Source of the DNA: Alloprevotella sp. OH1205_COT-284
GTDB taxonomy: Bacteria > Bacteroidota > Bacteroidia > Bacteroidales > Bacteroidaceae
Direction: 5' to 3'
DNA length: 64,000 nt
NCBI RefSeq assembly: GCF_003859795.1
Contig: NZ_RQYI01000006.1
Coordinates: 1-64,000 of the forward strand
This document shows, one piece after another, positions 3,794-58,136 of this stretch; position 1 is the stretch's first letter; every line of letters begins with the position of its first letter. Both the position numbers and the translations under genes were made by a program. A model generated the notes under the pieces. It saw only the letters and a program-made list of their open reading frames with translations, did not search any database and was not told the DNA's origin.

Positions 3794-3802
3794 AAAAACA
3801 TC

Positions 3803-4044
3803 ATGTACCCAAAAACGCTGTTTATGGGACATGAGAAAGCGATCATGTACCCAAAAACGCCGTTTATGGGATATGAGAAAGTAATCATGTACCAAAAAAC
3901 GCTGTTTATGGGACATGAGAAAGCGATCATGTACCAAAAAACGCCGTTTATGGGATATGAGAAAGCGATCATGTACCAAAAAACGCTGTTTATGGGACAT
4001 GAGAAAGCGATCATGTACCAAAAAACGCCGTTTATGGGACATGA
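3803..4044. repeat. 42-bp tandem array, six copies, alternating in pairs
   Basis: Copies start at 3803, 3845, 3887, 3929, 3971 and 4013; the last is cut short near 4044. Each begins ATGTACC and contains TTTATGGGA. Odd copies read ACGCTG and GGGACATG; even copies read ACGCCG and, in copies 2 and 4, GGGATATG. This suggests amplification of an 84-bp dimer. Because 42 is divisible by 3, open frames run through on both strands, giving repetitive peptides such as MYQKTLFMGHEKAI. I do not call these as genes. The remainder of the gap (4045-4214) shows nothing recognisable. Confidence 0.9.
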
Positions 4045-8821: not shown

Positions 8822-8899
8822 CCACGTCCCGACAACGGCACACGCGCCTCGCTGCCGAAGTTTCCGCCTGCCCGCCGCCGACAAACGCGTGGGAGGCAG

Positions 8900-8995
8900 A
8901 AAATTCTAACTCAGAGGTAGGATTTTCTAACTCAGAGGTAGAAAAACCTACATTGGAGGTAAGAAAAACGACATGAGAACCGAGAAAAACGGGCG
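8900..8995. repeat. Intergenic 21-bp tandem array (four units plus part of a fifth)
   Basis: Units start at 8900, 8921, 8942, 8963 and 8984. The first two share TTCTAACTCAGAGGTAG; the next are diverged (CCTACATTGGAGGTAA, CGACATGAGAACCGA) but keep the exact 21-bp step and the A-rich start. The array begins about 80 bp after the epimerase stop. Confidence 0.85.
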
Positions 8996-9090
8996 TTCCC
9001 CGATGAGATGAAGGCATGTGCTTTTTCCTCATCCCTCCCACTACGCTGCAAGCCTTCCTGCATGTTCTATCTATGGGATTGACTACATGA

Positions 9091-9339
9091 GATACTGTAA
9101 AAAGAGTAGATGATACTGTAAAACCGGTAGATGATACTGTAAAACGAAATCCCAAGGAACGGCAAGTTGCGGTCTTGGATATGATGAAAGCAATGCCTAC
9201 CATATCGGCAAAAGAAATGGCCGACAAGCCGGCTGTGTCATACAGCACGATCAGACGAGATATAAATATACTGATGCAAGAGAAAAAGACCAGACGAGAA
9301 GGAGCTGACAAAACGGGGCAGTGGATCGTTTGCCGATGA
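9091..9339 (+). pseudogene. Relic of the C-terminal winged-helix of an AlbA/RecG-like ATP-binding protein
   Basis: An 82-codon frame, preceded by an in-frame TGA at 9088-9090 and lacking a start codon, ends at TGA 9337-9339. It opens with DTVKRVDDTVKPVDDTVKRN, a heptad repeat that is also a 21-bp DNA repeat. It continues into a winged-helix segment with SAKEMADKPAVSYSTIRRDI, INILMQEKKTRREGADKTG and QWIVCR. Proteins with an AlbA_2 domain (formerly annotated as RecG-like ATP-binding regulators) commonly end in DTV-type repeats plus such a winged helix. The DNA-binding part of a gene about five times longer has therefore been left behind. The family call is moderate; the missing 5' end is clear. 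Confidence 0.55.
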
Positions 9340-39018: not shown

Positions 39019-39143
39019 GTCTTTTATCCGAAAACCGCCAAACCGCTCCGCCTTCCTGCGCGCAGTTGGCCGAAAACGAGAGCCGCGCCGATGAAACCAC
39101 CCTTTTCGGACGTTTTTCCACCCTATTTTTTTGTTTTTTGCCG

Positions 39144-39472
39144 TTTTGCCTTCGCAAATTCCTCTTTTCCCCTGACTGTCAGCGCGTTTTGTGCGAAGGC
39201 AAGTGAAGGCAAACTTTCAAGAGAAATCGCAACCCTCTGAAAATCACAGCCCCTACGGTGAAGGCAAATTCCCCTTTTGCCTTCACCTCCTTTCACAGAG
39301 CGCGACACGAACACCGCCTTTTTCCAAGGCAGTGAAGGCAAAATAACACCACAACATACTGACTTCCAGCGACTTGAAAAACAGCTTTTCGTTTTGCCTT
39401 CACTTGCCTTCGCACAAAACACACTGAAAATCAAAGATTTGAATTGATTTGCGAAGGCAGTGAAGGCAAAAA
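39144..39472. repeat. Cluster of direct and inverted GAAGGCAAA repeats
   Basis: About seven copies of GAAGGCAAA or its complement TTTGCCTTC occur in 330 bp. A 29-bp segment at 39186-39214 (GTTTTGTGCGAAGGCAAG...) returns inverted at 39391-39420 with one extra base. A perfect 12-bp hairpin lies at 39257-39287. Half-site variants reading GAAGGCAGTGAAGGCAAA occur at 39452 and, with one change at the start, at 39326. No gene is visible. A short alternating GCGCGC stretch follows at about 39488-39502. Confidence 0.85.
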
Positions 39473-39536
39473 CAATGAACAGGGATACGCGCGCACGCGC
39501 GAGAGCGGCCGTTTTTTAACATTGTCGGGAGGTGGT

Positions 39537-39603
39537 TTTCGCTACCTCTGAGGTGGAAAATTTTAGCTCAGAGCTAAAATTTTCCGCACCGCGGTGCGGA
39601 AAA
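39537..39603. repeat. Intergenic 21-bp-period palindromic array (three units)
   Basis: Units start at 39537, 39558 and 39579 with cores CTACCTCTGAGGTGG, TTTTAGCTCAGAGCTAAAA and CCGCACCGCGGTGCGG. The middle unit sits inside a 29-base perfect palindrome. These are the same three core types, in the same order, as hairpins seen at 889 and 18386 in part. Confidence 0.88.
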
Positions 39604-39932
39604 TTCCTTCTCCCACCCCTTGCCGCAAGTTCCGAGCTTGTTCTCTTCTTCGTGGAACAAGACCTCAGATTTCGGAGGCCTTTTCAAAAGCGACTGATGC
39701 CTTACGGACAGCGGGTGAATGAAATCGTTGGAGATACACCCGGATTTTTCAGTATCGCTTTTTCGATTGAACAAGCATAAGGAAAGACCGTCATCACCTC
39801 CAATCGAACCGACAAACGGCTCGTCGCGAGGTTGGATAAATCCAAAGCAAACACTCATCACTGCCCTATTCTGCTCAAAAGGCGAGTGCAAAATACCCAT
39901 TTTTGAGTATTGTGTCGGTATCGCGGTCTTAG

Positions 39933-58010: not shown

Positions 58011-58136
58011 GCAACTCGTTGCTCGAAACAAACTACTCGTTACTTAGAATTTTCTACTCGTTACTTAGAATTTTCTACTCGTTATGTAGGATTTCCTATT
58101 CGTTGCTTAGATTTTTTCACTCGTTGTTCGGAAATT
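58011..58136. repeat. Intergenic tandem array, six exact 21-bp units
   Basis: Units start at 58011, 58032, 58053, 58074, 58095 and 58116. Units two and three are identical over 20 of 21 bases, sharing CTACTCGTTACTTAGAATTT; all six keep the ACTCGTT or ATTCGTT core. The core differs from that in the arrays at 889-39603, but the period and the AT-rich link are the same. Confidence 0.92.

Follow-up and report, generated by a model that had tools for sequence, protein, structure and literature searches.

Dispersed, gene-free inverted arrays in Alloprevotella sp. OH1205_COT-284 and their relation to VapE–DUF3874 helicase genes

In the window, the 64,000-nucleotide stretch of DNA that was analysed, the element under study has a 340-bp core (39134–39473, forward strand; aligned with 39 other genomic copies), followed by a CG-alternating tail, ATACGCGCGCACGCGCGAGAG (39485–39505, forward strand); all 40 copies have CGCGCG no more than 60 bp downstream. 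The core, which we assign to family A, is quasi-palindromic: the family profile also fits most copies when they are reverse-complemented, along almost their whole length, and for the window copy the match to its own reverse complement scores 160 bits, again over nearly the full length. A simple coding scan upheld the description of this element as gene-free in the initial annotation, finding no gene inside 39 of the 40 copies; the single overlapping open reading frame flagged (in L043) was taken as spurious. The same annotation had counted about seven copies of a 9-mer or its complement, and there are exactly seven exact copies of GAAGGCAAA or its complement at 39145–39470; the whole window holds 12, versus 0.92 expected from dinucleotide-preserving shuffles (0 of 100 shuffles reached 12). 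Its perfect 12-bp hairpin was confirmed as well (GGTGAAGGCAAA at 39257–39268 and TTTTGCCTTCACC at 39276–39287; 39257–39287 as a whole, unstranded), and its 29-bp inverted repeat, about 180 bp apart, is present but longer than described, with 41-nt arms (39173–39213 and 39393–39433) that are 90% complementary and separated by 179 nt.

The core follows a grammar in which words of the form GYGRARGCAAA stand as inverted pairs around four TGAnnnTCA dyads, with dyad centres spaced by 65, about 121, and 65 bp. A conserved box, identified by alignment of copies and running from GATGAAACCACCCTTTT... to CCCTATTTTTTTG (39090–39133, forward strand), precedes the core, and GATGAAACC occurs within 200 bp upstream in 25 of the 40 copies. 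Within the core, the outer left arm word TTTTGCCTTCGC (39144–39155, reverse strand; sequence checked) lies in invariant or nearly invariant columns, and is followed by dyad 1, the conserved TGAnnnTCA dyad TGACTGTCAG (39173–39182, forward strand; family consensus TGATTTTCAG), by the double word TGCGAAGGCAAGTGAAGGCAAA with two sites 10 bp apart (39192–39213, forward strand), and by dyad 2, CTGAAAATCA (39237–39246, reverse strand). Beyond the hairpin lie the word AGTGAAGGCAAAA (39331–39343, forward strand; sequence checked), dyad 3, TGACTTCCAG (39360–39369, forward strand), the double word TTTTGCCTTCACTTGCCTTCGC (39392–39413, reverse strand), a 22-mer that was also counted genome-wide, dyad 4, TGAAAATCAA (39425–39434, forward strand), and the outer right arm double word TGCGAAGGCAGTGAAGGCAAAA (39450–39471, forward strand); dyads 2 to 4 and the double words TGCGAAGGCAAGTGAAGGCAAA and TGCGAAGGCAGTGAAGGCAAAA were placed by alignment. 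Downstream of the tail, a remnant of a 21-bp array of the GAGGTAG/CTACCTC type (39530–39606, forward strand) contains two perfect palindromes (39555–39585 and 39578–39605).

A blastn-type search of the genome aligned 40 places over at least 363 bases at 69–100% identity, and a sequence-only covariance model built from 40 aligned copies recovered 60 near-full copies, one half remnant, and four copies truncated by contig ends. On contigs read nearly or wholly through, copies scored above 200 bits with three exceptions: a copy truncated where its contig stops, a duplicated end, and the solo-end remnant at C1:178360. The initial annotation had proposed looking for further copies and had considered that a strain-unique sequence with no conserved structure would speak against it; the search instead gave about 64 dispersed intergenic copies in this genome, and neither strain-uniqueness nor a lack of conserved structure was found.

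Conservation among the copies is concentrated in the words and the four dyads, which hardly change from copy to copy. Of the alignment columns, 161 are conserved at 90% or more and 96 fall below 60%, a strongly bimodal distribution. In the four closest copy pairs, columns that are conserved across the remaining 38 copies show differences at 0 of 118–122 positions, while the variable columns differ at 23–28 of 97–99; three further close pairs differ at 1, 5, and 3 conserved columns. The spacers are fixed in length but near saturation, with a median difference of 0.68 versus 0.65 for independent draws. This word-level constraint suggests, on the evidence of the alignment, selection at each copy for protein contacts; the same pattern could instead reflect recent arrival of copies from a diverse pool. 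Recombination between copies was considered as the cause and set aside, as the mosaicism observed (mean minimum segment distance of 0.295 versus 0.322 when permuted) is insufficient to explain the constraint. The words also show an unusual regularity: every second base is invariant, and the bases in between change only by transitions (G-Y-G-R-A-R-G-C).

Among the options raised by the initial annotation, a protein-binding site fits best because the short words are conserved while the fixed-length spacers vary, and binding is what we infer from this pattern. A structured or cis-regulatory RNA, which the same annotation had listed with covariation as its check, is very unlikely. The perfect hairpins and long inverted repeats do give a low predicted energy, but RNAalifold assigned only −0.78 of −53.3 kcal/mol to covariation; the stem arms hardly vary, most of their pairs being the same in every copy, column pair 19–329 is broken in 9 of 40 copies, and both sides are changed in any sequence for just 6 of 49 predicted pairs. 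Genes surround the copies in every orientation, and no Rfam family reached its cut-off within the window. On the grounds of covariation and the Rfam search the RNA candidate was rejected, and the pattern suggests a DNA–protein platform under selection rather than a structured RNA.

We then consider the distribution of the element. The core 22-mer, allowing up to three mismatches, matched 122 times in this genome and 0 or 1 times in each of 57 congeners. Uniqueness to a single species, as suggested by this 22-mer, was overturned by other dialects of the words in congeners and other genera: a relaxed grammar pattern accepting any word of the CYTYCRC/GYGRARG type gave 86 hits in the congener G064, 20 in G784, 18 in G005, 13 in G687, 12 in G063, 9 in G824, and 8 in G702. 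By this pattern a minority of the family's genomes carry the arrays in multiple copies, most having 0 or 1, near control counts; related arrays are thus patchy in Bacteroidaceae, with one Parabacteroides record in addition. The exact GTGAAGG pattern was absent from 393 genomes across the order, a weak negative since this pattern also misses the present genome. A plasmid search returned no match to the window element, and the VapE protein had no match among viral contigs. A phage or plasmid origin of the window element was discarded; judged by eye, the two exact viral-contig matches of a 19-mer look like coincidences within coding sequence.

Comparison of the present genome (G000) with G064 ruled out positional conservation: for 40 G064 elements, the orthologues of the flanking genes lie at a median of 4.2 kb from the nearest G000 element, versus 3.4 kb for random genes. 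Two G064 elements with 21-bp array words, the two cases read in detail, fall between genes that are about 40–50 bp apart in G000, one site being beside a porin-like gene and the other between uvrC-like and dtd-like genes, where G064 has an extra gene (gene names by sequence reading). Because these two congener-filled sites are empty here, the elements come and go; read by eye, both empty-site junctions are too diverged to define a target duplication. In another genome, what looks like a nested insertion, about 290 bp long and bounded by inverted GATTATCCGCAATC...GATTGCGGATAATC, splits an array at L112 (G082:C76, about 570–860). Several copies (L030, L039, L045, and L046) have yet another dispersed palindrome nearby on their upstream side, similar to GTGTCCGATAAAAGTTTT...AAAACTTTTGTCGGACACT.

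The initial annotation had called the element unlike the 21-bp arrays of the window. This is not right, because many copies have such arrays immediately downstream. Counted strictly, 17 of 40 copies have at least two GAGGTAG/CTACCTC words within 200 bp downstream and none has them upstream, and the same criterion is satisfied by 0.7% of random 200-bp windows.

Related arrays also flank replication-helicase genes in other gut bacteria. In five records, three of them with DUF6078, arrays flank BT4734/VapE/DUF3874 helicase genes. At G082:C55 the flanked gene encodes 685 aa, in which BT4734-like_N and VapE-like domains were recognised and DUF3874 matched weakly; at G454:C37 arrays flank a 742-aa BT4734/VapE-type gene and a DUF6078 gene; and at G082:C138 arrays with the word GGTGTAGG flank a 712-aa open frame and DUF6078. 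A helicase gene of Bacteroides finegoldii (NZ_OY725909.1) is array-flanked by eye with the word GCTGACAATA, as is, also by eye, one from Parabacteroides distasonis (NZ_OY725757.1), where the dyads are weaker and were missed by the detector. PF05272 matched the array-linked proteins scanned with E values of 3e-25 to 3e-33, and no transposase, integrase, or relaxase was found in the array-flanked units read.

A detector built from the grammar reported 92 units versus 1 in reversed sequence, as tested on its own design set. Around DUF3874/DUF6078 genes, units lay within about 100 bp of a DUF3874 gene end at six further loci (L369, L370, L374, L375, L376, and L377, of which L375 is G082:C138 again), against 0.13 by chance (p about 6e-9), both figures being estimated post hoc from the reversed-sequence control. 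At the DUF3874/BT4734 loci L382, L384, L385, and L386 the detector found no unit; by eye, GGTGAAA or GGTGAAGG words lie just downstream at L385 and L387. DUF3874 was present in 12 of 12 array genomes versus 7 of 14 others (p = 0.005; comparison genomes hand-picked). No array-flanked coding copy was found in the present genome, where the one full DUF3874 gene, on C68, starts about 600 bp downstream of a family A copy, with an array only on its 5' side; its VapE relative in G064, 62% identical, starts about 220 bp downstream of an array.

Two more DUF3874 fragments, with nearly equal scores, occur at contig ends in G000, at C2:80–289, near the first base of that contig, and at C16:40644–40853, in a short open frame; they may be termini of a repetitive coding element at which the assembly broke. 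Separately, L138 (G000:C43, 6108 bp) carries Mob_Pre relaxase, Toprim, and VapE-like genes and no GAAGGC-type words, and looks like a mobilizable element or plasmid fragment.

At E = 5e-9 the 742-aa protein matched PDB 7pds, an entry whose description likens it to D. nodosus vapE and which we take to be a SaPI5 protein. In SaPI Rep helicases the C-terminal domain recognises an iteron origin directly downstream of the rep gene; Cch2, whose closest homologue is the SaPI5 Rep, binds such repeats through its C-terminal domain (PMC7581432). The coding units of other genomes resemble this layout, with iteron arrays directly downstream of a VapE/SF3-type initiator helicase gene, whereas the arrays in G000 and G064 lie upstream of the VapE gene. 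By analogy, the arrays may be iterons and DUF3874 a candidate reader of their words. The present arrays also differ from those of SaPIs in being inverted, in often bracketing the gene, in carrying TGAnnnTCA dyads, and in having dozens of gene-free dispersed copies; integrase and phage-packaging genes were not seen in the units read, and origin activity here is putative.

We also found the copies to be widely spaced, and more evenly than at random. Family A neighbours that share a contig are never closer than 9.07 kb (39 gaps), whereas random placement on contigs of known length gave a mean of 14.7 gaps below 9 kb, with at least one such gap in every one of 20,000 simulations. Self-comparison of roughly 0.82 Mb revealed a second family, B (about 500 bp, 13 copies), which has the layout of family A with different words, GTGTAGAC/ATGTAGAC. 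No B copy comes within 7.5 kb of an A copy, a separation unmatched in 20,000 random placements of B copies; for both families combined, the gaps have a coefficient of variation of 0.40 versus 0.91 at random, and a minimum of 7.5 kb where random placement expects 18 gaps below 7 kb. In G064 the minimum gap among the listed elements is 5.8 kb, versus 7.9 expected gaps below 5.5 kb. Such spacing would be expected of chromosome-organising sites, that is, platforms for boundaries, insulators, or nucleoid proteins, whether native or domesticated, needing quasi-regular spacing of about one per 10–30 kb, for which the helicase link would be historical. The large minimum gap in family A, the mutual avoidance of A and B despite their different words, the similar spacing in G064, and the lack of decay in the copies read, with just two solo-end remnants, all agree with this explanation. 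We nevertheless consider it rather unlikely: most congeners have none or one, and there is therefore no general chromosome function; positions differ between G000 and G064, with two sites empty in G000; and exclusion during insertion could yield identical spacing.

Spacing of this kind resembles transposition immunity, and would also suit a conventional MITE family served by a DDE or other transposase that has gone unrecognised and shows target immunity; the words would then be where the transposase binds at the ends, and the VapE genes would be passengers. The label MITE-like, offered by the initial annotation, holds for the roughly 64 dispersed intergenic copies, the inverted-repeat architecture, the patchy distribution, and the two congener-filled sites empty here, but not for the rest of the definition: neither a transposase nor a target duplication was found, and the copies are not decaying as ordinary MITEs do. 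The coding units share the inverted arrays, but encode VapE/DUF3874 and DUF6078 and no transposase; spacers near saturation with words intact in every copy are unlike dead MITE copies; and cross-exclusion of families with different words requires a shared factor. We consider a conventional MITE family unlikely. REP/BIME sequences, far shorter than the present element, have a tyrosine transposase (RAYT) as partner, whereas the gene linked here is a helicase. The likeness lies in their being high-copy intergenic palindromes able to bind proteins (PMC2817692). BrickBuilt, a MITE of P. gingivalis, is likewise an intergenic Bacteroidales repeat with flanking segments and short tandem repeats, of 23 nt versus 21 nt here; it has IS-like terminal repeats, target duplications in three of four intact copies, and 19 copies per genome (PMC4596501). 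IS-like ends and duplications were not found for the present element, whose motifs appear to be held by selection and whose copies are spaced.

With moderate confidence, we lean towards reading the window element as an array-only, probably non-autonomous and probably mobile copy of iteron arrays recognised by VapE–DUF3874 initiator helicases. Its coding relatives are units in which such arrays bracket a primase-helicase-like gene of the BT4734/VapE/DUF3874 type, in many cases joined by a gene for DUF6078. The VapE–DUF3874 protein or a partner would bind the repeated words, with two dyads per arm, 65 bp apart, and a symmetric complex would assemble and melt or replicate the DNA, as SaPI Rep does at downstream iterons. 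Array-only copies would use, or would once have used, this helicase machinery in trans, and would thereby have spread into intergenic sites; they would stay intact because they are still bound and selected, and an exclusion effect would keep them at least about 9 kb apart. The data show the dispersal of the copies, the constraint on their motifs, the grammar common to the families, the minimum spacing, gain or loss between congeners, and the physical linkage of arrays to VapE–DUF3874 genes, whereas protein binding, origin-like function, movement in trans, and what causes the spacing are inferred. Against this reading stand the lack of a transposase, integrase, or relaxase to move the array-flanked units read, the lack of an array-flanked coding copy in the present genome, the DUF3874/BT4734 loci at which the detector found no array, and positions that differ between congeners. 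More tentatively, and with some doubt, these elements may represent a recombinase-free mobile class, in which inverted iteron arrays surround a primase-helicase (VapE–DUF3874, often with DUF6078), array-only copies spread in trans, each family has its own words, exclusion acts over at least about 9 kb across families, and the copies also partition the chromosome.

The coding units lack the transposase that a MITE family would need, and they share the layout of SaPI-like origins. The arrays look like a type of mobile or chromosome-structuring DNA not described before. A search of the open-access literature found no described bacterial repeat that joins sequence-unrelated families with one grammar, constrained intact copies, minimum spacing, and linkage to an initiator helicase; it found no paper on DUF3874 or DUF6078, and nothing on spaced arrays of this kind. 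The favoured reading would supply a candidate function for these two protein families of unknown function, would make DNA-word recognition by DUF3874 directly testable, and raises the testable question of what holds the copies about 10 kb apart.

Other repeats were observed in the window. A 21-bp tandem array, CTACTCGTTACTTAGAATTTT (58033–58126), lies upstream of an open frame and is of the type that elsewhere follows family B, with no recognisable B core. At 8880–9000 and 9091–9145 there are stand-alone 21-bp repeats of the GAGGTAG type with a different 21-bp repeat, GATACTGTAAAACCAGTAGAT, beside them, and a 42-bp tandem repeat of 5.8 copies with 93% matches occupies 3800–4044.
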